Positions 1,335-30,730 of a stretch of DNA of 30,759 bases are shown here, piece by piece. The notes under the pieces were generated by a model that was not told the DNA's origin, ran no database searches, and saw only the letters and a program-made list of their open reading frames with translations. This DNA is from a virus, in IMG/VR virus record IMGVR_UViG_3300025087_000247, positions 1-30,759 of that record, one strand, 5' to 3'. A program made the position numbers and the translations under genes. Numbering within the stretch: the first letter of the stretch is position 1; each line of letters starts with the position of its first letter.

Positions 1335-2832
1335 ATTATTAATTTTGGCATTATTTATTCTTTTATTCCCTGCACTAGCACAGGCAACGATACATTATGC
1401 TTCAGCCACTGGTTCTGCTAGTTGGGCTTCTAGTATATCACAGAATACTCCTTGTTCAGCTACGACAGCTATGTCCAATGCTTTAGCTGGAGATACGGTA
1501 TATTTTCGGGGGGGTATTTATGCTTTAGGCCAATCAGATAATAATATTAAAGGAGTTGGAGTGCTAACTCCTAGCCATAGTGGAACTTCTGATACTAATA
1601 GAATTGTATTTGAGGCTTACCCTGGAGAAACTCCTCATTTAAGGACAACAGTTTCAGGTTCAATTATCTCTAGGGCTTGGGGAGATACAGGGCATGATTA
1701 TACTACTTTAAGAGGGTTTACTATTTCTGGTATTGGTGCAGTAAATGGTAATTTTGGTAGTGTAGGAATAGGAAATGGTAGTATAGGAACTGTAATAGAT
1801 AGATGTATTTTTGTTGGTGATCCTGCTGGGGGGACTAATACAGATAATATCTCAGGCATTGCTTTTGGTGAAGATTCAAATTATACGGTTATAAGTAATT
1901 GCACATTTACAGATTATTGGGATACAGCTAATAACCATAATACTAGCGCGATTAAAACTTATTTTGCTCAGTATTTAACTGTTACTAATTGCAACTTTAT
2001 TCACAGCACTGTCGCAATTTATAATAAACAAGCAAGTAATTTTAATAATTATAGTAATAATTATATCTACAATTCTAATACTGCTATTTTAGTTAACGTA
2101 GATAATGTAGGCAATTCAAGTAATGGCACGGTGGCTAATAATATAATAATTGATTCCTCTTATTCTGCTCTTACATTAGAAAGACAATCAACTAACTATA
2201 CCCCAAATTGGGCTATAAATAATAATACTATTTATAATCACTCAACAACAGCAAGAATGATTAGTATAAATAATTCTACTGGTAGGTATGTTTATAATAA
2301 TATCTTAGGGGGTAATGTAAATGAAGGTACTGTTAGATACATAGCAGATTCAACTATTGATGCTGATGATCATAATTTATACTATAATACTGTTTTTTCA
2401 GTGTATAGAAATACTACTAATTACTCTTCTTTATCTGCATGGCAAGCTTCAGGAGTTTTAACTGGAGGTGGCAATCCTGGAGTAGGTTCTTTAAGAACAG
2501 TTACACAAAATATATGGCAAAATAGCTCTGGAACTTTAAGTCAAATAAATGACTTCATTCTAGTTAGTGGTTCACCAGCTTTAAACACAGGTAGAACAGG
2601 TAATATAGGTGCCAATCCTACTACAGTAGGAGTAACAAACTTAACAAACTTCTCTGTTATTACTAATTTAGGAGGAATTGGGAGCAATGGAGAGAAAGGA
2701 GTTTTAAGTTTAAAAAGTAATATTATTAAAACAAATCTTAGTCTAGGTAGTAGTGGAAATTACACTCCTCTTTCTTCACTTATTTTAGTATCAAAAATAA
2801 TTATAAAAAAAATAAATATCTTAATACAATAA
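1324..2832 (+). CDS. Secreted right-handed beta-helix (pectate-lyase-like) protein
   Basis: This 502-residue protein starts at ATG 1324, not at the upstream in-frame ATG 1297, because GGGGAG lies about 9 nt before it and the signal peptide then begins at residue 1 (MRLKLLILALF, cleavage likely after AQA, residue 21). The mature part is Asn/Thr/Ser-rich, with repeated short strands (TVISNCTF, LTVTNCNF, NGTVANNII) typical of the pectate-lyase-like or parallel beta-helix repeat fold. Such folds act as polysaccharide lyases, hydrolases or phage tail spikes. No substrate can be named. A signal peptide is unusual for a virion protein, so it may be exported from the infected cell. The tail (about 430-502) resembles the junction seen in the previous protein and ends in INILIQ. 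By eye the gene is richer in A+T than its neighbours, perhaps indicating later acquisition. Confidence 0.8.
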   Translation: MRLKLLILALFILLFPALAQATIHYASATGSASWASSISQNTPCSATTAMSNALAGDTVYFRGGIYALGQSDNNIKGVGVLTPSHSGTSDTNRIVFEAYPGETPHLRTTVSGSIISRAWGDTGHDYTTLRGFTISGIGAVNGNFGSVGIGNGSIGTVIDRCIFVGDPAGGTNTDNISGIAFGEDSNYTVISNCTFTDYWDTANNHNTSAIKTYFAQYLTVTNCNFIHSTVAIYNKQASNFNNYSNNYIYNSNTAILVNVDNVGNSSNGTVANNIIIDSSYSALTLERQSTNYTPNWAINNNTIYNHSTTARMISINNSTGRYVYNNILGGNVNEGTVRYIADSTIDADDHNLYYNTVFSVYRNTTNYSSLSAWQASGVLTGGGNPGVGSLRTVTQNIWQNSSGTLSQINDFILVSGSPALNTGRTGNIGANPTTVGVTNLTNFSVITNLGGIGSNGEKGVLSLKSNIIKTNLSLGSSGNYTPLSSLILVSKIIIKKINILIQ

Positions 2833-2845
2833 AAAGAGGTTAAAA

Positions 2846-3055
2846 ATGAAAAAGTTAATTATTATTATTTCTATTCTTTTTCTTTCAGCTTGTGCAACTG
2901 TTGCTGGTCCGGAAATAAAAACGGCTGATCCGGAAATTCAAACGGCAAAAGCACAAATGGGAATGGGAGCTTTAACTCTTAGTGCTAGAAAAGGTCTTGT
3001 TACGACCACAACTGGGCCTAATGGAAATACTTCCATTATGGTAACAATCAAGTAG
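2846..3055 (+). CDS. Small lipoprotein
   Basis: This 69-residue protein has a type II signal peptide: MKK, a hydrophobic stretch, then the lipobox LSAC with the lipidated cysteine at residue 16. The +2 residue is Ala, which in Gram-negative bacteria would favour the outer membrane. The mature 54 residues contain a near repeat, PEIKTADPEIQTAKA, and no domain I recognise. GAGG lies 6 nt before the ATG. It sits between two other signal-peptide genes in the same direction. An outer-membrane spanin (Rz1-like) was considered, but it is not proline-rich and has no partner inner spanin. Superinfection exclusion or host-surface modification are other possibilities known for phage lipoproteins. The function remains unknown. 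Confidence 0.75.
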   Translation: MKKLIIIISILFLSACATVAGPEIKTADPEIQTAKAQMGMGALTLSARKGLVTTTTGPNGNTSIMVTIK

Positions 3056-3072
3056 TAAAAGGAGTTTTAAAA

Positions 3073-3591
3073 ATGAAAAGATTTCTTTCTGTTTTCGTAG
3101 CAATAGCTTTTCTCTCTCTTGCTTCTTATTCCGAAGCGGCTTTTACTGCGGGTATGACACAGATAGCAAAAGAAGCAGCTATGGACGCTGCTTATATAAC
3201 TGGTGCTCCGGTTATTAAAATGGCCTTGGGTCTGCAAAGTGCAAATACGGCGATAAATACTGCGACTACTGATTACACTTCTTTTACTGATCTTGGAACG
3301 GCACATGGATACACGGCTGGTGGGAATACTCTTTCTTCCTGCACTTCCGTTTCTACTGCTGGTTCTTCCCCTCTGGCAGCAGATTTTAACTGCACTGGTG
3401 GACTTGTTTGGACGGCTACAGACAGCACTGGTATTACTGCTGACTGCGCAGTTCTTTATAACAGCACTTCTGGAAAAATAATGGCTCTTTATACCTTTAC
3501 CTCTGCTGCTGCAACAGGTAACGGAGCTACTTTTACAATAACTCCTCCGACTGTTTCTTCTTCCGTTCGCGGTATGATGTATATTCAATAA
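3073..3591 (+). CDS. Exported small structural-like protein with signal peptide
   Basis: This 172-residue protein begins with a Sec signal peptide (MKRFLSVFVAIAFLSLAS, cleavage likely after SEA or SEAA, residue 22 or 23). The mature part has a Gly/Ala/Thr-rich beta pattern with GTAHGYTAGGNTL followed by strands such as LVWTAT, CAVLYN and KIMALYTF. This resembles small beta-sandwich virion proteins that accompany phage tail fibres or decorate heads, in which a GY-x-x-GG motif is common. That resemblance is from memory and not certain. Three cysteines in the mature part could form disulfides outside the cytoplasm. GGAG lies 8 nt before the ATG. It ends in MMYIQ, like the -IQ ends of both beta-helix neighbours. 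A terminator follows 9 nt after the stop. Confidence 0.7.
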   Translation: MKRFLSVFVAIAFLSLASYSEAAFTAGMTQIAKEAAMDAAYITGAPVIKMALGLQSANTAINTATTDYTSFTDLGTAHGYTAGGNTLSSCTSVSTAGSSPLAADFNCTGGLVWTATDSTGITADCAVLYNSTSGKIMALYTFTSAAATGNGATFTITPPTVSSSVRGMMYIQ

Positions 3592-3599
3592 GTTAAAGA

Positions 3600-3641
3600 G
3601 GGGAGTTAGTGCAAGGAAAAAGGCTAGCTCCCCTTTTTTTA
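3600..3641 (+). terminator. Rho-independent terminator after the exported-protein gene
   Basis: A 10-bp stem (GGGGAGTTAG at 3600-3609 with CTAGCTCCCC at 3624-3633, one G-T pair) is followed by a run of eight bases, seven T and then A. It lies between the stop at 3591 and the strong ribosome binding site before 3669. It also argues against a GTG start at 3609 for the next gene. Confidence 0.85.
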
Positions 3642-3668
3642 TCCTTCTTTTCTTTTGGAGGTTTTAAA

Positions 3669-6443
3669 ATGAAGAAGATTCTTTATTTATTTTTCCTTTC
3701 TTTTTTTCTTTCTTCGACTAATAGCTTTGCTGTTTATTCCTTGCCTACAAGTAGCAATTCTAACGGGACAAATAACGCTAGAAATAGTATAACTTGGGCA
3801 GGGAATGTAGGGGTTCTCGGAGGGATTCCAGATAGGGCTACTATTTATACAACCGTAGCAGTAGGTGGGAATATTCAAACGGCGATAAATAATTGCCCTT
3901 TAGGACAAGTTGTAAAACTCGCTTCTGGAACACATTCTATTTCTTCTCAGCTTTATTTAAAAAGTGGAATAACTCTCCGTGGAAGTGGAATGGGAGTTAC
4001 GATTATCCAACCTACTACTGCTATTTCCGGTAGTCCCGTTAGATTTTCTTCCGGTGGGACTTTAAGCTCTTCCCTTGTTTTTTCCACTGGACTTGCAAAA
4101 GGTTCTACGGTTATCGGAACTTCTACTTCTCATGGTTGGGCTGTTGGGGATAAGATTCTTCTAGATCAACTTTTAAGTAGTTCTGATTCTCCTCCAGTAG
4201 ATGATGGAAGTAGGACTTATACTGACTATGCAAGAAATAGCGATAGACTTCCTGGACAGATAGTGAAAGTTATTAGAGTTATTTCTTCTACTTCTGTAGA
4301 AATAGAAATCCCTACTTATTGGAACTATAACTCTTCTCGAAGCCCACAAGCTACTAAAATAAATAACTGGATGGATAATGCCGGGATAGAAGATTTAACT
4401 ATTAATAACGCAAATGGAGGGTCTAGCCAAACAGGTTGGGGAGGTTCTTTAACTATGCACGCTACAGATAACTGCTGGTTAAAGAGAGTAGAAGTTATTG
4501 GTTCTTACATGTCTGCTATTAATATCCGTTATGGGTATAGAGATACTATTCAGTTTTCTAAATGGCATGAGGGAATTCCAGCAACTCCTTATCAGGGTTC
4601 TCCTCAGTATGATACAAGTAGAGCTTATGGAGCACAACTTAATCCCGTCAGTGCTTCTCTTTTTGAAGCAAATGAAATTTATCATTTAGACATGGCATTT
4701 ATGCTTGTTGGGCAATGTTCAGGGAATGTTTTTGGGTATAACTATATTTGGGGAATGCAATACGCTCCAAGTGCTTCTTGGCAAGTGGATACAGTAAGAG
4801 CACATGGCGGGCATCCTATGATGAATTTAATAGAAGGGAACTGGACTGTAGGAACAATGAAGTTTGATAACACTTGGGGGACTTCGAGTCATAATACTTT
4901 TTTTAGAAATAAAATACGACTAGAGACAAGTAGAACTAGCTCTGCTCAGGATTTTAACTTCTATCCAACAGTTTGGTATAATAACGCAATAGGGAATGTT
5001 TTAGGTACAGCGGGTTTTGAGACGGCTTATTCTACAACTGCTGGAAGCTCTACAAAAGCGATTATAGGTTATTCAAGTTCTAATCAACACTTTTTCCATG
5101 CAAACTGGAACTCGGTTAATAACACAACTCTTTACAATGGAAGTGAGGATCAAGTTCTTCCTGCTTCTTTTTATCTTTCTTCTAAACCCTCTTGGATGGG
5201 AAGTGGAACTCCTTGGCCGGCAATAGGTCCAGATGTTTCTCCAATGGCACCGGCACAACCTGCTTTTGGAGATATGCCTTGGGATATACAAGAAGAAACA
5301 GACACAACTCCACCTGTTCTTTCTGCTGGAAGTCCAAGTGGGAATCTTCCATCTGGAACTACTTCTACTTCTGTTTCTCTTAGTACTAACGAAGCTGCTA
5401 CTTGTAAATGGAGCCTTTCTTCTGGAACTTCTTATGCCTCTATGAGTAATACTTTTACTACTACAGGAAATTTAACTCATTCTTTTACTAAATCTGGATT
5501 AACAAATGGAAGTTCTTATAATACTTATGTAAGATGCTCTGACGGGATTAATGTAAATACCTCTGATTATCTTATTTCTTTTACTGTTAATAACACAACT
5601 CCTACACTTTCTGTTTTTGATACTTTTACTGATCCTAATGGAACTGCACTTACGGGGCATACTTCTGAGACTTCTGCTACTTGGGATAACAATCCCTATG
5701 CAGGAACTGGAACAATTACAATACAGAATAATAGAATCTATAGCAATCAAGCCTTTGGGACTTATTATGTTTCTAACTATGCTCCCGTTTTAAATGCAAC
5801 TCTTAGTGCAGATTTATACGTCGCTAGCAATGCTACTTATGCTGCTTCTGGTTTAACTCTTAGACAATCAATAACTGATGCCACGATGTATGTTTTTAGA
5901 TATAAACTTAGCGAAGGTGCCTGGGTTTTAGAAAAACTAGTAAGTAATGTTGTAAGTAATTTAGGAAGTTATCCGGCTACTTTAACAGTAGGGCAAACTT
6001 ATCACATGACTTTTGTTATCAATGGCTCGACACTTAATGGTTTTGTAAATGGAGTTAATATCCTAACTGTTACTGATACTTCTATATCTACCCCTGGATA
6101 TATCGGGGTAAGGCTTTATTACGGGAGTTCTACAACTGGTTATCATCTTGATAACTTTGAACTTCTTACTTCTGCAAATGCTTATGCTGCTCTCACTGGA
6201 AAAGGAAGTACCGGGGGATTTGGATATTTAAGTATAAGTTCTTCAAACCCCGTTACAAGATCTTTCTTCACTGGACCTTTTGGTGGTACTGGGGCAGGAA
6301 ATTTACCTTATCCAGTAAAAACAACAGGGAAGATTATTGCTGAAACTACTGAAGGTAGCTTTGGAGATATTTCAACAGAAATATCCTTCTCCGCATCAAT
6401 ACCAAAATATAATAAAAAAACTGGAAGGATTATTATTCAATAA
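3669..6443 (+). CDS. Large secreted beta-helix, Ig-like and LamG-like tail-spike or depolymerase protein
   Basis: This 924-residue protein starts at ATG 3669 because GGAGG lies 8 nt upstream and the signal peptide begins there (MKKILYLFFLSFF, cleavage likely after SFA, residue 21). The upstream GTG at 3609 lies inside a terminator. Visible order: a pectate-lyase-like beta-helix (about 60-510, starting with IQTAINN, VVKLASGTHSI and ITLRGSG); an Ig/FN3-like module (about 545-640, TTPPVLSAGSPSG then EAATCKWS and YNTYVRCSD, with two cysteines likely paired); a LamG-like module (about 648-835, FDTFTDPNGTAL, related to the module in the first gene); and a short C-terminal domain (about 842-924) ending GRIIIQ. 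The layout resembles exported bacterial polysaccharide-degrading enzymes as much as phage spikes. The substrate is unknown. Confidence 0.8.
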   Translation: MKKILYLFFLSFFLSSTNSFAVYSLPTSSNSNGTNNARNSITWAGNVGVLGGIPDRATIYTTVAVGGNIQTAINNCPLGQVVKLASGTHSISSQLYLKSGITLRGSGMGVTIIQPTTAISGSPVRFSSGGTLSSSLVFSTGLAKGSTVIGTSTSHGWAVGDKILLDQLLSSSDSPPVDDGSRTYTDYARNSDRLPGQIVKVIRVISSTSVEIEIPTYWNYNSSRSPQATKINNWMDNAGIEDLTINNANGGSSQTGWGGSLTMHATDNCWLKRVEVIGSYMSAINIRYGYRDTIQFSKWHEGIPATPYQGSPQYDTSRAYGAQLNPVSASLFEANEIYHLDMAFMLVGQCSGNVFGYNYIWGMQYAPSASWQVDTVRAHGGHPMMNLIEGNWTVGTMKFDNTWGTSSHNTFFRNKIRLETSRTSSAQDFNFYPTVWYNNAIGNVLGTAGFETAYSTTAGSSTKAIIGYSSSNQHFFHANWNSVNNTTLYNGSEDQVLPASFYLSSKPSWMGSGTPWPAIGPDVSPMAPAQPAFGDMPWDIQEETDTTPPVLSAGSPSGNLPSGTTSTSVSLSTNEAATCKWSLSSGTSYASMSNTFTTTGNLTHSFTKSGLTNGSSYNTYVRCSDGINVNTSDYLISFTVNNTTPTLSVFDTFTDPNGTALTGHTSETSATWDNNPYAGTGTITIQNNRIYSNQAFGTYYVSNYAPVLNATLSADLYVASNATYAASGLTLRQSITDATMYVFRYKLSEGAWVLEKLVSNVVSNLGSYPATLTVGQTYHMTFVINGSTLNGFVNGVNILTVTDTSISTPGYIGVRLYYGSSTTGYHLDNFELLTSANAYAALTGKGSTGGFGYLSISSSNPVTRSFFTGPFGGTGAGNLPYPVKTTGKIIAETTEGSFGDISTEISFSASIPKYNKKTGRIIIQ

Positions 6444-11480: not shown

Positions 11481-11638
11481 GTAATCGAAAACAAAGAAAA
11501 GAAGAGAAGGAAATAAGAAGACTTAACAGAGGAACTCCCTTGAAAAATCAACCTACTAATTGGTGGATGATTCTAGACGATGAGATAGACTCTTTACTAA
11601 AGGAAGAAGAGAATGAAACACAAAATAGAAATCTGTGA
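11477..11638 (+). CDS. Small charged hypothetical protein
   Basis: This 53-residue protein starts in the ATGA overlap with the previous gene, with GGAG about 9 nt upstream. The N-terminal half is strongly basic (MSNRKQRKEEKEIRRLNRG) and the C-terminal half acidic (ILDDEIDSLLKEEENE), with a Trp pair at residues 29-30. It overlaps the next gene by 26 nt. No family is recognised; the packing and ribosome binding site support it. Confidence 0.5.
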   Translation: MSNRKQRKEEKEIRRLNRGTPLKNQPTNWWMILDDEIDSLLKEEENETQNRNL

Positions 11639-11804
11639 GAAGTGCAAGAAGGAGAAAGAACAACTCCTTGCTAATCCTAAAGGAGGATGTAGAACCTGTG
11701 ACTTTTCTTCTTTATCAGATTCTTCTGGAGTCTGTAAAGAATGCTTTGAGCTTTATACCCCGTTCGATCACTATCCAAAATGGAAAGCAAAAGAGGAGAA
11801 ATAA
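11613..11804 (+). CDS. Small protein with three CxxC pairs
   Basis: This 63-residue protein contains CEKC (8-11), CRTC (26-29) and CKEC (41-44). Three evenly spaced CxxC pairs suggest one or two zinc or iron sites of rubredoxin-knuckle type. The start overlaps the previous gene by 26 nt, with GGAAGAAGAG just upstream as a moderate ribosome binding site. The next gene begins 1 nt after its stop. It belongs to a run of cysteine-rich small proteins in this operon. Function is unknown. Confidence 0.6.
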   Translation: MKHKIEICEKCKKEKEQLLANPKGGCRTCDFSSLSDSSGVCKECFELYTPFDHYPKWKAKEEK

Positions 11805-11805
11805 A

Positions 11806-12411
11806 ATGTGTGAATGTAAAAACATGGATAAACATATCAGTGGAGAATGCTTTGTTACCGTTCCAAAATACTACCGAGACGAACACAAGGATGAAGTAAA
11901 TAGATGCCCTCTATGTGGAATAAGTCTTAACCATCTTGGTCTTTGCCCCCTTGGTTGCAGTTTTCCCAGAAAAGAAAAAGTCCAGGTTTTCGAAGGGCTT
12001 AACAAAGGAAGGGAAGGGAGAAGAGAAAGTAGGGTAGAGGAGAAAAAAGCATATAACTGCCTTACTTGCAAAACTTATCCTTGCAAGTGTAAAAAAGCTT
12101 CTTCTTCGTTTGCCCCTGTAGATCATGACGAGAAGTTAAAACAAATGCAAGAGATATTCGACAAGTGCCTCGAAATAGCAAATGGAAAGGGGCATGATTA
12201 CTCTGGAACTAAAGATGCTATGAGTAACTTCCATGACTTTGGCTGGAAAGGAATAGTGGTTCGCTTAGGGGATAAGTTTCATAGGATTAAAAACTTCTGT
12301 AAACAAGAAGAGCTTTTAGTAAAAGATGAATCCATAGAAGATACTCTTTTGGATATTATTAACTACGCCGCTCTTTGTCTTATTGAGAAGAGAATAGAGG
12401 AGAAGAAATGA
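11806..12411 (+). CDS. Zinc-ribbon plus DUF1599-like (nucleotide-modification-associated / MazG-like) protein
   Basis: This 201-residue protein starts at ATG 11806 (GGAG about 8 nt upstream). The longer open frame from 11635 lies over the preceding cysteine-rich gene and is not used. The N-terminal part has cysteines at 2, 4, 15, 34, 37, 47 and 51, and a second cluster at 85, 88, 93 and 95. Residues about 110-200 match the DUF1599 pattern: GHDYSG (129-134), NF, GIVVRLGDKFHRIKN (149-163), and DESIEDTLLDIINYA (174-188). This helical family is associated by genome context with modified nucleotides and resembles MazG-type nucleotide pyrophosphatases. A role in the phage nucleotide pool is plausible. 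Substrate and activity are unknown. Confidence 0.7.
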   Translation: MCECKNMDKHISGECFVTVPKYYRDEHKDEVNRCPLCGISLNHLGLCPLGCSFPRKEKVQVFEGLNKGREGRRESRVEEKKAYNCLTCKTYPCKCKKASSSFAPVDHDEKLKQMQEIFDKCLEIANGKGHDYSGTKDAMSNFHDFGWKGIVVRLGDKFHRIKNFCKQEELLVKDESIEDTLLDIINYAALCLIEKRIEEKK

Positions 12412-12578: not shown

Positions 12579-12636
12579 AAAAAAAAAAAAGAAAAAAGAA
12601 AAGCCCCAAAGGAGAAATCCCGAGGGGCTTTTTTAT
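12576..12636. terminator. Convergent bidirectional rho-independent terminator
   Basis: AAGCCCC (12601-12607) pairs perfectly with GGGGCTT (12624-12630), with a T-run on the right and a long A-rich run on the left. It can therefore stop transcription from both sides. It separates the plus-strand replication operon (ends 12578) from the minus-strand virion operon (ends 12636). Confidence 0.9.
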
Positions 12637-15600
12637 TACCATTTTATATTCCCTTCTTCCATAGTATTATGAATCGTAGGACCAATAATAGGAATATCCC
12701 TAACCATTGTTTTCCTAAAGGCATCCCAATTATCATCTACTATTCCTAGCTTTAGTGCATACCCTTTTGTTCCGATATCTCCAATTACAACTCCTGAGAG
12801 AGCTTCTGCAAGTCCAGAAGAACTTCGCATAGAGTTTTGCACGGTATCTGCCCAAAGACCAAAACCTCCTCCGCTAGCAAAATAGCGGCTTAGTTGTTGA
12901 AGAAGCGTTTCATCGTCTCGAATCTTCCCGGTTAAAAAATCTATTGCCTCCGCGGTAATTCCCCCGCTAATTGCCATTACTGGAATTAACTTCGCTGCCA
13001 TTAGCGGATCACTTTTCAGAGTTCTATAAACAAGTTTCGCCTGTTGGATTCCGAAAGTTTTAAAAAGTGTCAGCATTTTTATCCAAGGGCTTTCATTACT
13101 AACCCATCTTGGAAGACTCATTGCGTCATTTACAAACTGCGTCTGACGAACAAAGTTATAAGAAGCAGTTCTTCTATCGAATTCATTAAGCTCTGTTCTA
13201 CTTGCAAGAATCTCTTCTGGCTTTAGCCCTAGTTTTTCAAGCCGCATTGCTGCTCGTTTTCTACTTCCGCTATCAATAGGAGAATTTTGAAATTCTCTAA
13301 AAAGATCCGTAGCATATTCCCTTCCGGTTTCTGCTGCAAATAGCCTATTAAAAATCTCACTATGTTTAAACCCTGTATAAGTAAGGCTCTTATCAGAAAG
13401 ATTCTTCATTCCCTCTGCAAGTTTCGCAGCACTTAAAAACTCTGCACTTACTGGCTCTTCATTTTCAAACCGTGCAAATTCATTAGCATAAGAATGAAGC
13501 ATTGCGGCACTTCTTTCTGCTCGATCCATAACAGTTCTAGGATCGCTGAAGATATGCCCAAGGGCTTTAAGCGAACTCTTTGTATAAGAAGTCCCTATGG
13601 TATTTGCACTTTGTCCTAAGTTTCTTAAACCTGCTCGACCCATTTTTGTAAGAACTTCATAGCTAACTGCAACATCAGAAACTATCTGTGCAACTGGATC
13701 ATGAGCATAACTTCCGCCGACTATTCTTTTATTTATATCCGTAGCGTATTTATAAACATAATCTCCACTTTCTCTTTTTATATTTCCAAGAAGTTCTAAA
13801 GCCCCTTTTCCATTTTGCCCAAAGGCTTTAATAACCTCTAGTCTTTTAGTAGTAGAGAGAAAATAGTTATCAAAAACTATGTCTATATTCTTCTCAAACC
13901 CCTCTACATCGAACTCTCTTGCATATTCCATATTTCCATACTTAGGGCTATTCATTCTTCTACTAAGAATTCGATCAAGAAGAACTTCTGCTTGTGCCGG
14001 TGTATCTGCATAGCCTTTAGTTATCATTTGTTTTATAGCCGCATCGTGCTTTCTCCCCGGTCGGAGAAGAGTTTCAGGGTCGTAATAACGTGGCCAGTAA
14101 GGTTCATTAGAGTCAAATTCAAAGGGGACTTTTTCTCCTTTTAGGTTAGTTATCTTAACTCCATTAGCTATCATATCTTCTGCAATTTCGTTAAACTTTT
14201 CTCGGTAAAAGGTAGCGGCTGCCTTTACTTCCCTACTATCATGCAGTTGCCCGAACTCTTCTGTTTTATAACTAGATACTATTTCAAAAACTCTCTCTTT
14301 ATCTTTCTCTGAAAGCTTGGAGTTTATATTCTTCTTTATTGTCGCCATTTCTGCATATCGAAGATCGGACATTAAACGGATGGTAGAGAGTTTATCCGCA
14401 AGAGCTTTTGCACTCGGGCCGTGCGTTCTTAAATACTGCTCTCCATCGGAAGCAAGTCTTGCAGTTACTTCTTTAAGCCCGAAAAATCCTCTTTTAGAAA
14501 GCGAGGTTTCTACAAAAACCCTATCTGCTTCTTTAACTGCTTTCCGGATAGAAGTCTTTTTTGGACTTTTAAAATCCTCTCCGAATTTAGATTTATAAAG
14601 AAAGAGAAGAGCTTCTTTTACTTTCTCTTTATCACTAGCTGCTAGGTCTTTAAAAGAATCAAAGTCTGTTACCTGCTTAACTAAGACTTCTAACTCTTTT
14701 CCAGTTAAACCAAGAGCGGTTTTAATCCTCCCTACTTCTCTTCCAAGACTTCTCTCTATAACCTTCTCCCCTGAAGAAAGCTCCTTTCCGGTAAGAAGAA
14801 AATCTCTTACTTGCTCCGGTTCCATTTCAGTAAATTTTGTTAAGTATTCTTCTATTGAAATCTTCTCTTCTTTCGCCAGCTTTTCTACGTTTTGAAATTC
14901 TTCTTTAAGTCTTTTATTCGCCTCTTTCCGACTTGCTATTGTTTCTTTAGTAGTAAAGTCCTTTCCTGCTGCTCCAAGAGATTTAGGTTTTTTCAGGGAT
15001 TCAAGAACTCCCTTTTCATTTACAGAAAGAGTTTTTAAATCATTCTCTATCTCTGCTTTTGTAACTAAATTAATAACCTGCGCCCTTGCTATCTGTTCTG
15101 AAAAGAAAGAAGTAACCTGTTCATCTTTAAATGCAATCCAGACTCTATGTTCTTCCCCTCCAGTTATTTTACCTCCAATATGTGTAATTCCATCATAACC
15201 TATTTCTTCCAATCTTTTATTTACCTCTACTTTTCCTATTCTATCTGCTAGTCTTTTATATATATCCCCTCCATTTATTTTAAAATCAAAACCTGCATCA
15301 ATGTAGGGAGTTTCTCCAATTACTTTTCTTACTATTTCATTGGCTTCTTTTATTGAATACCCTTTATCTGCATCGAAAGGGTTTTTAATATCTACAAGTA
15401 ATTTTAAAACATTTGGTTGTGCTTCACGTATAGCCCTTTTTCTCGGATAAGAAACTTCATGAAATTGCGGATTCATTGTTTGGAGAGTTGCCCGTCCATA
15501 TTTCTCTTTTGCCTCTACTAAAAAAACCTGGGCCTCTGATAAGGAAGTAAATTCCTTTTTCCCTAATATTGCTCCAACACCAGAAGCTTCTGCATATTCA

Positions 15601-17771
15601 CTGGCAATTTTAGCATTTTCTGTAGTATAAATTCCTGGGCCATAAAAAGCATTTTCATCCCCACCTTTTACAGTTAATTTATCTATCGGTGCAGTTGTAC
15701 CATGATAAACAATTTTTCCTTTATTACTAAGTGTTTCTGCCTTTAACCCTACTACTTCAAAAAGAGCATCAATAATCCTCGGATCGAAATTATGCCCCCG
15801 CATTTCTTCAAAGATTTTAAGAAGCTCTTCCTGACTTGCTTCTTTTCTATAACTTCTTTTATTCGTAGTAAGCGCGTCATAAACATCTGCGGCACTTACT
15901 ATCTGAGCTTCGATAGGAATCTCACTTCCTTTCTTCTTCTCTGGATATCCCTTCCCATCAAATCTCTCATGATGTTTAAAGACAATATTCTTAACCGTTT
16001 CAGAGACATTACTAGTTTCTATTTCCTCTAACCCTTTCCTTGGGTGTTTTTCTATCTCTTTAAACTGTTCAGGAGTAAGGCCTTTATCACTAAAAAGAAT
16101 CTCTTTACTAACTTTTATCTTCCCATAATCATGCAACCAAGCTCCGTACATAAGATCATGTTTTATATTCTCCGGGATATTTAAAACCCTTGCCATTTTC
16201 ATAGCTATTCCTGCAACATGCTCTCCATGGGCTTTTAAATCCTTATCATACTGTGCTATTTTTCCAACTAACTCTTGAACTGTCGGTGGTTCTTTAACAC
16301 CTAAGAGAATTTCTAACTGCGAAATATGCTTCTCTGCAAGACCTCCAGTTGTTACTATCTGTTTCTTCCCCCATTTTCCAAGGTCAGTCCTATCATCCAG
16401 AACTGCAATAATCTCACTCCCGAGTCTTTTTAAAAACTGACTATCTATTCCAGAGACTTCATTTCCTCGAATCGGAGCAAGACCTTTTTTATTAACCGTA
16501 GGAGTATCCGCGCCAAAATCCGGTGTAACTCCTGCAACTCTTCCTACTAATCCATTCTCTTTATATTCCTCTTGAATAAGACTTAAGTCTTTAAGAATAA
16601 GTGAACCTTGCCTATGAGAAGAAGCACTGATAACATCAGGGTAATAGCCGTATTTAATTTTAAACTTTTCCATCGCGGCATTTCTTAAGGCCACTTTTGC
16701 AGGGTCGAAACCCGTCTTCTCGCTATACATTCCATCTATATCTTCCACTACTACTTTTTTAGAAACATCCGAAAGAACCATTCCCCCTTGGGAAGAGGAG
16801 AAAACCTTCGCTTCTGGAGTTTTTAAATCCAAAGAAAGCTGCTCTTCTTTTCCCCCTGAAGGTTTCTTTACTACTTCTAAATCCTTAACAACCTGAGAAG
16901 CTTTAAAATCTGGAACGCTTACAACCCCAGTAAAATCCGTTGCAACTTCAAGTGCTTTTTGTAAAGAAGGATTGTCTTTAACTGCCATGTTCATAGCCTC
17001 TTTACTAGGAACTCCTTCTTTTATTAAGTTCTTATATATCTCCGCTTTTTCTCCTGCAACTCCTCCCATAGAAAGAGTTATTCCTGTAAGAACAGAAGCA
17101 GTTATTTCCGTAAGATCAACTGTTCCTGTAGCTGCTTTCTGCTCTGCTCCACTTTGAAAACCAAACACTGCTCCCATTACTCCTGCTCTTTGTATCTGTG
17201 TAAGCGGAATTGCATTTATTGCTTCGAAAGTTTTTCCTATTCCAAAACGGCTTACAGAAGCTATTGCCCCATCTTTAACCGCTCGGACATAAGAACTGTT
17301 CGAATAGTCTTTCTTCTCTAAACTTCTCTGAAGAGAATCCAAAGTTCCCTTAACCCCTGCATAGCCAGGGCCAGCGATAAACTCTGCAATTCCCATAGGA
17401 GCACTTCCTATTCCTTCATAAAGACTTTTAACAAGACCACTAGTTCCTGCTTTCTTCTCCCAATAATCCGCTCTTTTATCAGAAAGCTCTTTTCCTTTTT
17501 TTAAACCAATAGCTCCGAGGAAGGAGCTGTTTGCTTTGTTAAAACCGGCAAGAGCGGAGAAGAGAGGGGCTTTTATCATGTTTTGGGTTAGGGAGTTTTC
17601 AGGCTTTTCTTCTATCTGAGAAGAAGGAGCTTGCCCCACAGACCCTCCTAAAATCTCACTAAGGCTAACCTCCCCTTCATTCCTTCCAGGCTCTTCCACC
17701 TTCTTCTTGGAAGAAACAGGAGGAGCCGAAGCCCCTCCATTTAAAAACTCATTTAAACTTAACTCTCCCAT
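12636..17771 (-). CDS. Giant polyvalent internal-virion protein with HD-GYP and ADP-ribosyltransferase-like domains
   Basis: This 1711-residue protein has GGAG 6 nt before its ATG and is the last gene of the virion operon, where short-tailed phages place their largest ejection protein. The N-terminus carries a repeated short motif (residues 2-13 and 33-44). Residues about 510-680 are a complete HD-GYP domain: H515, H518, HD at 547-548 with K551, H576, HHE at 600-602, GYP at 608-610, and D629-x2-D632. HD-GYP enzymes hydrolyse c-di-GMP and, in some cases, 3'3'-cGAMP. Residues about 687-890 look like an ADP-ribosyltransferase: YHGT (689-692), GPGIYTTEN (711-719), GYDGI (858-862) and a WIAFKDEQVTS ending. 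The middle is long and helical. Residues about 1591-1615 are hydrophobic and may insert into membrane. Delivery into the host is inferred from position and architecture. Confidence 0.85.
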   Translation of the reverse strand: MGELSLNEFLNGGASAPPVSSKKKVEEPGRNEGEVSLSEILGGSVGQAPSSQIEEKPENSLTQNMIKAPLFSALAGFNKANSSFLGAIGLKKGKELSDKRADYWEKKAGTSGLVKSLYEGIGSAPMGIAEFIAGPGYAGVKGTLDSLQRSLEKKDYSNSSYVRAVKDGAIASVSRFGIGKTFEAINAIPLTQIQRAGVMGAVFGFQSGAEQKAATGTVDLTEITASVLTGITLSMGGVAGEKAEIYKNLIKEGVPSKEAMNMAVKDNPSLQKALEVATDFTGVVSVPDFKASQVVKDLEVVKKPSGGKEEQLSLDLKTPEAKVFSSSQGGMVLSDVSKKVVVEDIDGMYSEKTGFDPAKVALRNAAMEKFKIKYGYYPDVISASSHRQGSLILKDLSLIQEEYKENGLVGRVAGVTPDFGADTPTVNKKGLAPIRGNEVSGIDSQFLKRLGSEIIAVLDDRTDLGKWGKKQIVTTGGLAEKHISQLEILLGVKEPPTVQELVGKIAQYDKDLKAHGEHVAGIAMKMARVLNIPENIKHDLMYGAWLHDYGKIKVSKEILFSDKGLTPEQFKEIEKHPRKGLEEIETSNVSETVKNIVFKHHERFDGKGYPEKKKGSEIPIEAQIVSAADVYDALTTNKRSYRKEASQEELLKIFEEMRGHNFDPRIIDALFEVVGLKAETLSNKGKIVYHGTTAPIDKLTVKGGDENAFYGPGIYTTENAKIASEYAEASGVGAILGKKEFTSLSEAQVFLVEAKEKYGRATLQTMNPQFHEVSYPRKRAIREAQPNVLKLLVDIKNPFDADKGYSIKEANEIVRKVIGETPYIDAGFDFKINGGDIYKRLADRIGKVEVNKRLEEIGYDGITHIGGKITGGEEHRVWIAFKDEQVTSFFSEQIARAQVINLVTKAEIENDLKTLSVNEKGVLESLKKPKSLGAAGKDFTTKETIASRKEANKRLKEEFQNVEKLAKEEKISIEEYLTKFTEMEPEQVRDFLLTGKELSSGEKVIERSLGREVGRIKTALGLTGKELEVLVKQVTDFDSFKDLAASDKEKVKEALLFLYKSKFGEDFKSPKKTSIRKAVKEADRVFVETSLSKRGFFGLKEVTARLASDGEQYLRTHGPSAKALADKLSTIRLMSDLRYAEMATIKKNINSKLSEKDKERVFEIVSSYKTEEFGQLHDSREVKAAATFYREKFNEIAEDMIANGVKITNLKGEKVPFEFDSNEPYWPRYYDPETLLRPGRKHDAAIKQMITKGYADTPAQAEVLLDRILSRRMNSPKYGNMEYAREFDVEGFEKNIDIVFDNYFLSTTKRLEVIKAFGQNGKGALELLGNIKRESGDYVYKYATDINKRIVGGSYAHDPVAQIVSDVAVSYEVLTKMGRAGLRNLGQSANTIGTSYTKSSLKALGHIFSDPRTVMDRAERSAAMLHSYANEFARFENEEPVSAEFLSAAKLAEGMKNLSDKSLTYTGFKHSEIFNRLFAAETGREYATDLFREFQNSPIDSGSRKRAAMRLEKLGLKPEEILASRTELNEFDRRTASYNFVRQTQFVNDAMSLPRWVSNESPWIKMLTLFKTFGIQQAKLVYRTLKSDPLMAAKLIPVMAISGGITAEAIDFLTGKIRDDETLLQQLSRYFASGGGFGLWADTVQNSMRSSSGLAEALSGVVIGDIGTKGYALKLGIVDDNWDAFRKTMVRDIPIIGPTIHNTMEEGNIKW

Positions 17772-19436: not shown

Positions 19437-20354
19437 TTATAGAAGTCCTGCAACTGCTCCAGCAACTCCACCTATAGCTGCTCCTGGAACTCCACCAAAC
19501 ATAAATCCCATAGAAGCTCCACCAATAGCACCACTAACAGCACTTCTTAACTTACTCCCATCACCTTTATCCGTAGAAACTGCACTTCCTGCAATACTTC
19601 CTAAGAAGTTCCCTCCGTATTGAAAAACTTTTAAATCCCAAAGGGCATCTTTTGCACTCATTTCTACAGAAGCATCGTCTAATTCATTTTTTATTGCAGA
19701 GTAAAGCTTCGCAAAATCCATAGCAGTTATGGCGATATCTCTTTTTGAAAGAATTCTTTTCGTTACATAATCCATAGTTATCATCTCATTCTTAAGAACA
19801 AGTTCTGCATTTAATTTAAAAGCATCATACCTAAGAGCAGCATCAGCTTTTGTAGTATCTTTCAGTTTCTGACTTCTAATAATCGCCTCTCCAATTGCAA
19901 AAGCAGAAGACATAACTGCATTAGCATTTCTCATTCCTGCTTTATATTTAGGAAGAATTATCTGATTAATATCCGCTTCAAGAAGAGCACTTTCCGCGGT
20001 CATAAGCGTATCTATCTTCCCACTAATATCAGAAATAAACGTACTTAATCCATTTACATTTGAATTTCTATACGCCTGAATAGCCGTTTCAAAATCTATT
20101 TCCGAATAAGTTTTTAAATAACTAAACGGAGCCGTGAAATCTGTAATTAACTTCCCACTTCCTAACAACATATTATTTGCATTAATCCCTACGTAACTAG
20201 CATAAGGGCTAACCCCTGACATGGCACTATTCATTGCCGCTGTTAAATCTATCGTAGCACTTCCAGTTCCTAAAAACTCTCCATGCCATGTTTTCATATA
20301 CTCTGGAAAATCTATCTTTCCAGAACTTCCTCCACCACCACCGGAACTTCCCAT
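19437..20354 (-). CDS. Internal virion protein with C-terminal glycine zipper
   Basis: This 305-residue protein has AAGGGGG 6 nt before its ATG. It begins with a Gly/Ser run and KIDFPEYMKTWH, a start that I recall in phage internal proteins of this locus. The middle (about 60-250) is helical. The last 35 residues are a glycine zipper (GAIGGASMGFMFGG, then GAAIGGVAGAVAGLL), a typical membrane-inserting pattern. It follows the GNAT-like gene by 3 nt. A role in forming the DNA-ejection channel is plausible and inferred. Confidence 0.65.
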   Translation of the reverse strand: MGSSGGGGGSSGKIDFPEYMKTWHGEFLGTGSATIDLTAAMNSAMSGVSPYASYVGINANNMLLGSGKLITDFTAPFSYLKTYSEIDFETAIQAYRNSNVNGLSTFISDISGKIDTLMTAESALLEADINQIILPKYKAGMRNANAVMSSAFAIGEAIIRSQKLKDTTKADAALRYDAFKLNAELVLKNEMITMDYVTKRILSKRDIAITAMDFAKLYSAIKNELDDASVEMSAKDALWDLKVFQYGGNFLGSIAGSAVSTDKGDGSKLRSAVSGAIGGASMGFMFGGVPGAAIGGVAGAVAGLL

Positions 20355-26253: not shown

Positions 26254-27528
26254 TTAAGGAGAGACTGTTCCATCAACTCCAATGTTATCCAGCCACCCGT
26301 GGGCTTTTTCGAAATGAAGTTCCAAACCAGCTTCAGTCAAGAATTCCGATTTTTCGCCGTCAAGGTCATTTGCCTGCCGATTCGGCAAATACTTTGTATC
26401 GTCTATATATCTATAATTGAGATACTTCGCATCGACTATAAGTCCCGAATGCCGAAGGGGAGCAAGAAGAGTGAAAAGAGGATGCATTTTAAAGTGCAAC
26501 TCTCCGAAACAAGAAACGAGAGTTACTACTTTAATCCCGTAAGAAGTAATTCCAGGAGTTATCGTCATTGTCGCATCTGCATCTACCATTCTTTGAATAC
26601 CGAGAAGCAGGCCAGAACCGCAAAGGCAAAGTTTCTCCGAGGAACCGTAACGGAAAAGAAGTTCCAAGTATTCATCCATGAAAACTTTCCCGCCAGATGC
26701 CCAAGTTGCACTGTTCAGAGAAGCGTAATCCTTCACGTTTGTAGAAAGGAAGTTCCTAATCCCTTTCGTAGTTCTTTCCAACTTCCCGTTAGTCCCCGTT
26801 CTCTGAGTCGGTTGAGAGAAAATGAAAGCTTTTTCCATTTCTATCGAGTGCATTTCAAGTGCTTGTGCTCTGGCTTCTTTAACCTGATCGCCAGTTCTCA
26901 GTCTCGTTGCTTTCCCTGTTCTGGTCAAATCCAGAGAAGTTCTGAAAATCTGAGTCTGATTGTAGAACTCAGTCGGATCGTAGATAATCGAAGAAGGAGA
27001 AGTTCCACCTTCAGAGTTTACAGAACCGATAACTATCATAGAACTGCCAGCACTTACCGCTGCATGAATAGCCTGCCCCAAATCATTTGCACTATCCGTT
27101 TCCAGCAAAAGGCAAGTGACATAAGAACTAGCACCGTTAATAACCGGAGCAACAGAAACTTTCGCAGTAAGTCTTGTCGCCGGAACAGCATTTACACAAA
27201 GCATTACTTGATGGCTGACATTAAACTTCCCTGCATCTTCCGCAGACATTTTTACATAAAACGTATCCCCGATTGCTGCTCCTGCATAAGCATCGGAAAG
27301 GTTCGTTCCACTATAAATCCCCGTTACTGTTCCTACCTGATCCGGCATTTCCTGTTGAAACCAGTGATATTTCGGATCATCTGTCTTTTCACTTTTCATC
27401 ATGGAAAGAATAGCTGTAAGTGCCGCGCCACCATTCGGATACAGTTTAAGAACCATCTGTCTCCAGTTTTCCGGCCTTTGTCCTGTTACTGTAAAATCTC
27501 CACTTCCTCTCATTCCTAAAAATGGCAT
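26254..27528 (-). CDS. Major capsid protein, SU10-like (HK97-fold)
   Basis: This 424-residue protein has a strong AAAGGAG upstream of its ATG. It lies after the scaffold gene and before a terminator, as expected for the most abundant virion protein. The segment with EFYNQTQIFRTSLDLTRTGK, followed by KEARAQALEMHSIEMEKAFIF and RTTKGI, matches the pattern of the SU10-type major capsid family (HK97 fold). It should form the hexamers and pentamers of the icosahedral head. There is no visible N-terminal delta domain or protease, which fits the use of a separate scaffold. Confidence 0.85.
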   Translation of the reverse strand: MPFLGMRGSGDFTVTGQRPENWRQMVLKLYPNGGAALTAILSMMKSEKTDDPKYHWFQQEMPDQVGTVTGIYSGTNLSDAYAGAAIGDTFYVKMSAEDAGKFNVSHQVMLCVNAVPATRLTAKVSVAPVINGASSYVTCLLLETDSANDLGQAIHAAVSAGSSMIVIGSVNSEGGTSPSSIIYDPTEFYNQTQIFRTSLDLTRTGKATRLRTGDQVKEARAQALEMHSIEMEKAFIFSQPTQRTGTNGKLERTTKGIRNFLSTNVKDYASLNSATWASGGKVFMDEYLELLFRYGSSEKLCLCGSGLLLGIQRMVDADATMTITPGITSYGIKVVTLVSCFGELHFKMHPLFTLLAPLRHSGLIVDAKYLNYRYIDDTKYLPNRQANDLDGEKSEFLTEAGLELHFEKAHGWLDNIGVDGTVSP

Positions 27529-28744: not shown

Positions 28745-30730
28745 TTAACTTCGCATCTGCAAGAACTCCTGCATATCAATAAGATTTCCTTTTTGTACTT
28801 CCCCGGTAACTTCTGCATTATTAGTCGTAGCAGCTTGGACATTTCCACCTCTCCGAATAAAATCATTTACATTTATCGCCCCATTTAACCTAGCCGCATG
28901 GGAGAAAATCCTTGCAATATCAAAAGTCTGATTTAGAACCGGATCAGAAGAAACCATCTTCATAGTCTCCATCCAAAACTGAACCTCTGTCTGACTCGCA
29001 GTTCTAGTAGTTCCATCTTTAAACTTAACATCAAAATCTGCTATTAAATCAAACGGATCAACAGGAACTTTCTGTCCATAACTAATCCCAAACTCTTCCA
29101 TAAGCTCAAGAGGCCAATCTCCTACAGCTTTTACATAAGTCCCTTCACTCATAAGTTGCTGCGTATGGCTCGCATGGAAGTAAGACATATCTTGAAGATA
29201 CTGTTTAGAAACTATCTTCGCCATTCTATCAAGCCTTGAAAGTGCCATATTCATTGTTCCATTAAACTCCGAAGCACTTACTCTTTCTCCTCTATCTTGC
29301 ACTATTCCTTGTGTTCCATCAGAAGCTCCTGAAGCTCTACTCATCATTCCCATTATCTGCTCTGCATCACCCATGTTCTTTTGAGTAATATCCATAACAG
29401 TAAGTTGTTTAACTGTGTTTTCTATCCCCCTTCCCCAAGCACTTCTTCTAAGTCTTATTAATTTTCCTGGTTCAGGGTTTTTTAAATCCTCCATATTTAT
29501 CAAAGAAGGATCAACAATCAACATATCATTCATTGCTTTTCTTACATTCGCAATATGACTATTAAACATAAAATCCAAAACAGTCTGAAGACCTCCGATA
29601 AGTTCCATTCTAGTAAGTGGCGTTATCGAATACCCGTCAAAATCCGGTGCCGCTACGGCTATTGGAAACATATTATGATTAAGCCCTAGCGGAACTGCTT
29701 TCGTAATTACCTCTTCATTCGCCATTTCAAAAAGCCATTTTTCGGGGTATTCCCCTCTCTCATTCCCTTCTAAAACTCCCTTCAACCCCCAATCTTTAGG
29801 AATAATCTCACAATACATCGGAACCATTGTTACATACTTAGCAGTAGTCGGAGTCTCTCTTTCTTCTCTAGAAAGAATCCTTTTAGAAGCATCAGTAAAG
29901 TATTTAGAACTTCTATGCATTGTTTCATTTTTAGAAATATATTTAACATTAACCCTATCCCCAAGCAAATCACTACTCAACAACCTATTCATACTTATAA
30001 ACTCTATCCAACCTATATACTCCATCGCTTGCACGTTATGAATAGAAGTATTCGGATCAGGAAGAAGTCTATAAGGATCAATATTAATACACTCATTCCC
30101 TTCAAAAAGAAGAGCTTTTATATTCTCCTTTGTAACTTTACTAGGAAGTTGAAGGCCCATATTCGACCACTGTGGAACTTCCACTCTCTGAGGCTTTTTC
30201 CCCCAAACTTGTTTCCAACTAAGTGTCGTAGCTCCTATTCCATAAGAAAAACAATCCCTAAGTGAGGCATAAATATCCAAAATACTTTTAAACCTATCCA
30301 CTTGTTGATTAACAACTAACTCTAGAAGTTTTGCCGGAATAGTATCCTCTGGTCCAACTCCCTCGAACTGAAAAACATCCCCGCTTAAAAAAGCCCTCAT
30401 CATATACGCTAGAATAGTCTCAAGAGTTGCATAAGAATAAGGAACAACTATTGAAGTAGGCTTCCTAACGTCAGAACTCTTAACAACCCTCTCCGCTTCA
30501 CTAAGAGGAATATAAACCTTCAACGTCTTATCTATCTCATTCCAAACGCCATGCCTTTTACTCATAACTGCATAACTCTCATCCGCATAACGAATAAGTT
30601 TCTCTAGAATCTTCTTATGTGTATCCGACTTAGGATGAAGATCAATACCGAATGGATATTCATACCCTAAATCTCTTACTGTTATAAGTCCACTTTGGGA
30701 ATTTCCACTCCCTTGAATAACATTCGGCAT
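28745..30730 (-). CDS. Portal protein (head-tail connector)
   Basis: This 661-residue protein has GGGAGG upstream of its ATG. The size, the INIDPYRLLPDPNTS segment (a common portal signature) and the C-terminal helical part (MGMMSRASGASDGTQGIVQDRGERVSASEFNG, then a helix ending HASHTQQLM) fit the portal proteins of short-tailed phages. Twelve copies would form the ring through which DNA enters and leaves the head. It is the first complete gene of the minus-strand virion operon. Bases 30742-30759 could encode the last residues (KDQVL) of the preceding gene, which by normal gene order would be the large terminase, but this cannot be confirmed. Confidence 0.85.
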   Translation of the reverse strand: MPNVIQGSGNSQSGLITVRDLGYEYPFGIDLHPKSDTHKKILEKLIRYADESYAVMSKRHGVWNEIDKTLKVYIPLSEAERVVKSSDVRKPTSIVVPYSYATLETILAYMMRAFLSGDVFQFEGVGPEDTIPAKLLELVVNQQVDRFKSILDIYASLRDCFSYGIGATTLSWKQVWGKKPQRVEVPQWSNMGLQLPSKVTKENIKALLFEGNECINIDPYRLLPDPNTSIHNVQAMEYIGWIEFISMNRLLSSDLLGDRVNVKYISKNETMHRSSKYFTDASKRILSREERETPTTAKYVTMVPMYCEIIPKDWGLKGVLEGNERGEYPEKWLFEMANEEVITKAVPLGLNHNMFPIAVAAPDFDGYSITPLTRMELIGGLQTVLDFMFNSHIANVRKAMNDMLIVDPSLINMEDLKNPEPGKLIRLRRSAWGRGIENTVKQLTVMDITQKNMGDAEQIMGMMSRASGASDGTQGIVQDRGERVSASEFNGTMNMALSRLDRMAKIVSKQYLQDMSYFHASHTQQLMSEGTYVKAVGDWPLELMEEFGISYGQKVPVDPFDLIADFDVKFKDGTTRTASQTEVQFWMETMKMVSSDPVLNQTFDIARIFSHAARLNGAINVNDFIRRGGNVQAATTNNAEVTGEVQKGNLIDMQEFLQMRS

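Follow-up and report, generated by a model that had tools for sequence, protein, structure and literature searches.

A predicted polyvalent ejection protein of a short-tailed phage contains a complete HD-GYP phosphodiesterase domain

The viral record IMGVR_UViG_3300025087_000247, analysed here over its full length of 30,759 bp (the window), contains a giant uninterrupted gene whose predicted product of 1711 residues carries a complete HD-GYP phosphodiesterase domain in its middle part. The sequence of this protein and the position of its gene are best explained by a polyvalent ejection protein resembling gp16 of phage T7, one that would be packaged in the phage head and delivered into the host. 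The HD-GYP domain of such an ejected protein would most likely hydrolyse a 3'3' cyclic dinucleotide soon after phage entry. This article sets out the evidence for the domain and for its carrier, the variable enzyme cargo that accompanies it in related phages, and the alternative explanations that bear on its activity, delivery, and substrate.

The domain is recognized by the Pfam profile HD_5 (PF13487), which matches it with 109.5 bits (E 2e-31) over profile positions 7–170 of 170 and with 114.6 bits in a translated search, scores that lie far above chance level. Its active site was mapped onto that of PmGH, whose structure was the first to be solved for an active HD-GYP enzyme (PMC4159591), by a phmmer alignment that was extended N-terminally to residue 509 by eye. 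Seven of the eight PmGH metal ligands have identical counterparts in the phage domain (H189 at H515, H221 at H547, D222 at D548, H250 at H576, H276 at H600, H277 at H601, and D305 at D629), and the eighth, the third-metal acid E185, is represented by an aspartate, D511. Both catalytic residues of PmGH are matched (D183 by D509 and K225 by K551), as is D308 by D632, and the substrate residues R314 and K317 correspond to R639 and R642. The original prediction, made from the sequence of the window, of a complete HD-GYP domain within a putative ejection protein is thus borne out in its central point by sequence, active-site mapping, predicted structure, and the existence of an orthologue. The residues it named (H547-D548-x-x-K551, H576, H600-H601-E602, DGKGYP at 605–610, D629, and D632) are all found where it placed them, and its list can be extended by H515, D509, and D511, which are present and had been passed over. 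Its interval of 15735–16240 was correct, the best boundaries being about 15774–16259 on the minus strand.

Structure prediction agrees with this assignment. In an AlphaFold2 model of residues 325–690, built from an alignment of 50 viral sequences, the HD-GYP domain has a predicted local distance difference test (pLDDT) score of 92–98 throughout. A Foldseek comparison of the model with the PDB returned HD-GYP phosphodiesterases as all of its top entries, namely PA4781 (4r8z, E 8e-10), PmGH (4mcw, E 1e-9), DvhD with cyclic di-GMP (c-di-GMP), and Bd1817, with the cyclic di-AMP (c-di-AMP) phosphodiesterase PgpH and V-cGAP3 lower in the list. Among predicted viral structures, the sole match with E<0.001 was gp79 of Bacillus phage G, a protein of 159 residues. 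The fold match suggests that the metal ligands of the phage domain converge as they do in the solved enzymes.

An orthologue of 1455 residues is encoded by a different phage contig, IMGVR_UViG_3300025030_000159 (L008), and has its HD-GYP domain at the same place. The two proteins are 64% identical in the HD-GYP domain, 60–63% in the C-terminal part, and 27% at the N-terminus, and the orthologue keeps all of the mapped PmGH ligand and catalytic residues. The ratio of nonsynonymous to synonymous substitution (dN/dS) in the HD-GYP domain is about 0.26, which is a sign of purifying selection and only a sign, given that synonymous sites are near saturation. Because the same fusion occurs in this second phage, with a C-terminus 63% identical, an assembly chimera is excluded and decay is argued against, and the fusion appears to be neither an artefact of assembly nor a decayed remnant. 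Because HD-GYP domains abound in bacteria, and also in viral records containing bacterial DNA, a chimera or host contamination might be suspected, but two assemblies of the phage agree, and the chance of such an origin is practically nil. The second assembly is a contig of 48,878 bp (G001, L005/L006) bearing a 127-bp direct repeat at both ends, and because of this terminal repeat it is probably the full genome. In blastn, DNA-level alignment to the orthologous contig survives only in part of the HD-GYP domain (window 15717–15998, 76% over 289 bp), and synonymous difference is lower in this domain (0.60) than in the C-terminal part (about 0.7), a likeness that may stem from domain exchange between phages.

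That the giant protein is an ejection protein, as first proposed, holds in an indirect form, through C-terminal likeness to virion protein families, a position after the head and tail genes, an ejection-related neighbour, and 18 syntenic giant proteins, some of which carry a virion transglycosylase domain. The giant gene is the last of the head/tail operon and follows the genes for the portal protein, the major capsid protein, and tail and ejection proteins. One of these neighbours, a protein of 305 residues, matches phrog_7477, a family that also matches a Vibrio phage protein which itself corresponds to the DNA ejection protein family phrog_4287 at 5e-56. The C-terminal 712 residues of the giant protein show a weak match over about 300 residues to phrog_342, an internal virion protein family with an endolysin domain (E 1.5e-6), and a match to the virion structural protein family phrog_684 (E 4.4e-5); the C-terminus of the orthologue matches the same two families at 1.5e-3 and 3e-7, respectively. 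Two membrane-spanning regions, one on each side of the cytoplasmic part, would be looked for in a gp16-type protein, and the stretches found, near residues 220 and 1595, are only mildly hydrophobic. In the giant protein, the part with gp16-type profile matches is preceded by the enzyme cargo. For T7, the body of gp16 (residues 411–1118) has been assigned a location in the host cytoplasm following ejection (PMC8954989). The 48,878-bp genome has a podovirus-type gene set that includes a phage lysozyme, and no integrase was seen in its gene predictions.

The cargo of the giant protein extends beyond the HD-GYP domain, and two adjoining modules had been overlooked when that domain was first described. 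Downstream of it lies an ADP-ribosyltransferase (ART) domain of the ART-PolyVal family (PF18760), which scores 39.6 bits in a scan of the isolated domain, against a cut-off of 31.2, and 30.9 bits in the whole protein. The His and Tyr of its H-Y-D triad were placed by eye (YHGT and GPGIYTT), and the strand-5 Asp had no confident placement. The orthologue lacks this domain, a difference that reads as gain or loss of a cargo domain between the two phages. Upstream, residues 327–495 are predicted from their motifs to form a HAD-like phosphatase: the motifs occur in the order DIDG, SSHR, and DDR, with DIDK, STHR, and DDR in the orthologue, and a DxD, S/T, acidic DD order is one that we take to indicate a HAD phosphatase. 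The AlphaFold2 model of this module contains strand-helix-strand elements, with pLDDT 70–82 in its first half, and its weak Foldseek match (probability 0.69) is to 1xpj, presumably a HAD-type structure. Searches of PDB sequences and of family profiles, NCBIfam included, returned nothing for this region, which is possibly a new phosphatase family. Together, the HD_5, ART-PolyVal, and HAD-like modules place the giant protein, by its domain content, among the polyvalent proteins.

Related phages carry other cargo in the slot of the giant gene. A portal search yielded 126 viral contigs, of which 47 long records, some of them fragments, were searched whole. Homologues of the C-terminal part that carry no HD-GYP domain are encoded in three records (L229, L230, and L231), with that of L231 being 30.6% identical over 494 residues (E 3e-65). 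Giant proteins of 1207–2496 residues occupy the corresponding slot in 18 of 19 fetched regions (L229–L247), mostly near a DNA polymerase gene. Pfam domains detected across 20 giant proteins comprise LPD23 (in five), SLT transglycosylase and ART-PolyVal (three each), HD_5 and DNA methylase (two each), and GemA (one), and their PHROG matches are to internal-virion families, phrog_342 among them, and to transglycosylase families. Most of the cargo regions of these proteins have no known domain. Comparing the C-terminus by hhalign with giant proteins from phages of Desulfofustis, Vibrio, Microcystis, and Caulobacter gave no match, and these proteins are counted as syntenic only; for the giants other than those of L008, L229, L230, and L231, we infer homology from position, size, and cargo. 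Overall, the slot appears to be a site for polyvalent ejection proteins with exchangeable enzymes, the HD-GYP domain being one of them.

The preferred explanation, which is rated at slightly better than even, is that a short-tailed phage uses the giant protein as a polyvalent ejection protein, whose cargo is delivered to the host and whose HD-GYP domain hydrolyses a 3'3' cyclic dinucleotide. The C-terminal ~800 residues would be the gp16-like portion, which would travel inside the head and leave it together with the DNA, and the middle of the chain would be the enzyme cargo that reaches the host cytoplasm, consisting of the predicted HAD-like phosphatase, the HD-GYP domain and, in this phage, the ART. 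The HD-GYP domain would bind a di- or tri-metal cluster and linearize a 3'3'-linked cyclic dinucleotide, and the HAD-like module may then take phosphate off the linear product. From the first minutes of infection onwards, the enzymes would hold down, around the site of entry, either a nucleotide alarm, for example the cyclic GMP-AMP (cGAMP) of cyclic-oligonucleotide-based antiphage signalling systems (CBASS), or the c-di-GMP of the host.

Several observations weigh against this explanation. The phage domain has a histidine, H518 (also His in the orthologue), in place of R192, the Arg that braces D308 in PmGH. The L10/11 substrate loop, which carries R314 and K317, is longer by one residue in both phage proteins, an insertion that none of 48 further viral HD-GYP domains shows; these two changes might alter activity and specificity. 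HD_5 was found in only one of the 47 related records besides this phage, that of the orthologue, and with an HD-GYP domain in just two known phages it is dispensable for this architecture. The likeness of the C-terminus to internal virion families is weak, its best E being the 1.5e-6 given above, and the AlphaFold2 model of the C-terminus (pLDDT 38) is too poor to use. Finally, the T7 core shows only four gp16 subunits (PMC8954989), and with so few copies a virion is likely to carry a handful of enzymes, making depletion of a bulk host pool slow. A few ejected enzymes would perhaps blunt a rising alarm or act locally, and an instant collapse of the whole c-di-GMP pool is doubtful.

The altered arginine and the lengthened loop would fit an HD-GYP domain that is catalytically silent, with a binding or structural role, or one that acts on another phosphate substrate, and an inactive relative, Bd1817, is among the solved structures (PMC4159591). 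Bd1817 lacks the Tyr of the GYP motif, unlike the phage domains (PMC4159591), and the eight ligand positions (identical apart from the Glu-to-Asp change) and both catalytic residues are kept in two diverged phages; we consider silence or another substrate very unlikely. The weak C-terminal likeness, in turn, would suit a late protein that is not ejected, being cytoplasmic or staying in the particle, and whose HD-GYP domain is active only late in infection. Against this stand the position of the gene at the end of the virion operon, beside a relative of DNA ejection proteins, and the transglycosylase domains and phrog_342 matches of syntenic proteins, which fit a role in entry, and a non-ejected protein is judged unlikely.

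Which cyclic dinucleotide would be the substrate of the ejected HD-GYP domain is not something that the sequence can tell, the best match among PDB sequences being V-cGAP3 (5z7c), a 3'3'-cGAMP phosphodiesterase, and the nearest enzymes by fold and by NCBIfam acting on c-di-GMP. The best named NCBIfam model is the NosR-family c-di-GMP phosphodiesterase, at 108 bits on the domain and below the whole-protein cut-off of that family. One possibility, to be held tentatively, is that the ejected domain acts specifically on an immune cyclic dinucleotide (CBASS 3'3'-cGAMP or one like it) and degrades it before the effectors fire. The V-cGAP3 match is consistent with this, as is the swapping of cargo between phages, which would be expected in an arms race, and it is established that phages possess enzymes for degrading immune nucleotides (PMC12657218). 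The adjacent HAD-like module could mimic the second step of V-cGAP1, which both linearizes cGAMP and then removes the 5' phosphate (PMC9813507). Within the HD-GYP family, however, sequence likeness is no predictor of substrate, and the nearest folds, PA4781 and PmGH, and the nearest NCBIfam model point elsewhere. An ejected domain that lowers host c-di-GMP and thereby alters physiology (motility, envelope, and biofilm) rather than immunity would accord with the activity typical of HD-GYP enzymes and with the NosR-family model, but a few ejected molecules would be slow to affect a whole-cell pool and a slow change would be of little use to a lytic phage, making this rather unlikely. A more elaborate version of the preferred explanation would have a virion-borne chain of HD-GYP and HAD phosphatase linearize and dephosphorylate a cyclic-dinucleotide alarm as soon as the DNA enters and ahead of any phage gene expression, on a gp16-like carrier with exchangeable cargo; this is speculative and of low probability.

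Wider searches returned the fusion from no further lineage. When the full-length protein was compared with isolated phages by tblastn, only HD-GYP domains were matched and the fusion had no relative; the matches that were checked lie on fecal contigs lacking annotation and belong to stand-alone or sensor-type proteins. A DNA pattern for the HD-GYP domain matched at least 120 stretches of viral contigs, and among the matches listed a giant virion-type gene occurred only in this lineage; a DNA pattern of the conserved C-terminal motif recovered just the same two phages. Pattern scans of GTDB genomes for the combined HAD and HD-GYP module and for the portal, using short and insensitive patterns, gave no relative from which a host or prophage could be named. 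The record 'Microcystis phage MaAM05' (MW495066, L251) was rejected as a phage HD-GYP carrier; its cGAMP phosphodiesterase gene is flanked by coaD, secE, trxB, and a tRNA gene, and it looks like a mislabelled bacterial contig.

Coordinates of the features discussed are collected in the table below. The giant gene is adjoined by a gene on the plus strand (window 11635–12411) for a 258-residue protein that carries the nucleotide modification associated domain DUF1599. Further away, window 1297–6443 on the plus strand encodes large proteins with signal-peptide-like starts and weak matches to beta-helix or 3-keto-disaccharide-hydrolase families, and the contig of the orthologue has a similar large gene at the matching position.

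Table 1. Positions in the window of the giant gene, its modules and key residues, and neighbouring virion genes.
Feature	Coordinates	Strand	Basis
Giant gene (1711 aa), predicted polyvalent ejection (internal virion) protein	12636..17771	minus	Uninterrupted open frame; 1455-aa orthologue in L008; syntenic giant genes in related phages
N-terminal region, residues 1–324; no PHROG match	16800..17771	minus	Fast evolving, 27% identity to orthologue; mildly hydrophobic stretch near residue 220
HAD-like module, residues 327–495, function predicted only	16287..16793	minus	DxD, SSHR, DDR motifs; 41% identity to L008
HD-GYP phosphodiesterase domain, residues 505–666	15774..16259	minus	HD_5; AlphaFold2 pLDDT 92–98; Foldseek 4r8z, 4mcw, 9rbz
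H515 (PmGH metal ligand H189)	16227..16229	minus	Alignment to PmGH
HDYGK, 547–551: metal ligands H547, D548; catalytic K551	16119..16133	minus	Motif, PmGH alignment
H576 (PmGH metal ligand H250)	16044..16046	minus	PmGH alignment
HHERFDGKGYP, 600–610: metal ligands H600, H601 and GYP motif	15942..15974	minus	Motif reading
D629 (PmGH ligand D305) to D632 (PmGH D308)	15876..15887	minus	PmGH alignment
ADP-ribosyltransferase, ART-PolyVal family, residues 686–889	15105..15716	minus	PF18760
C-terminal gp16-like ejection-protein region, residues 900–1711	12639..15074	minus	phrog_342, phrog_684; homologous in L231, L229, L230
305-aa neighbour, likely ejection protein	19437..20354	minus	phrog_7477
Major capsid protein (SU10_MCP)	26254..27528	minus	Profile match
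Portal protein (SU10_portal)	28745..30730	minus	Profile match

Several known systems can be compared with the proposed protein. Polyvalent proteins were defined, and predicted to be injected, as giant multidomain chains encoded among virion genes and combining several unrelated activities; ART is their commonest protein-modifying domain, and the nucleotide-signalling domains of some include GGDEF and RelA/SpoT, with 2H also occurring (PMC5512222). The protein described here is of this kind but bears a predicted signal-degrading rather than signal-making domain, and neither HD-GYP nor 'HD domain' is named in the main text of that work (PMC5512222). HD-GYP enzymes have been predicted in jumbo phages to counter cyclic-nucleotide immunity (PMC7824862); no virion fusion is mentioned there, whereas here the domain forms part of a predicted ejection protein, in a podovirus-type phage of ~49 kb. 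No example of a virion-borne HD-GYP domain was found in the open-access literature, in agreement with the original prediction, although such absence is no proof. What appears to be new is the carriage of HD-GYP on a polyvalent ejection protein, enzymes delivered in this way being already known. The likeness to T7 gp16 lies in the C-terminal region (phrog_342), in encoding by the last of the ejection-protein genes, and in the presence of an N-terminal enzyme, which in gp16 is a peptidoglycan transglycosylase and here would be a set of cytosol-type enzymes. T4 Alt provides the model of a head-packed enzyme that is injected and acts on the host immediately, but is an R-S-E-type ADP-ribosyltransferase unrelated to HD-GYP. 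PmGH of Persephonella marina (4mcw, PMC4159591) and PA4781 (4r8z) agree with the phage domain in fold and active-site residues; both are bacterial proteins, and the phage domain departs from them in the Asp at the E185 position, the His at the R192 position, and the lengthened substrate loop. V-cGAP1-3 of Vibrio cholerae share the HD-GYP fold and linearize 3'3'-cGAMP; they are host enzymes. Acb1 and other phage anti-CBASS nucleases likewise clear a cyclic nucleotide signal, but have not been described as virion-borne fusions in the literature found, and we take them to belong to a different enzyme family.

Enzymes with which phages clear immune nucleotides are generally pictured as being made after infection has begun, when the alarm is perhaps already rising. 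If the explanation favoured here is true, an HD-GYP domain would, as part of an ejection protein, be active from entry onwards, and signal-destroying enzymes would join the injected arsenal of polyvalent proteins. With exchangeable enzymes in the giant-gene slot, the ejection proteins of such phages may be a place to seek more early counter-defence enzymes.

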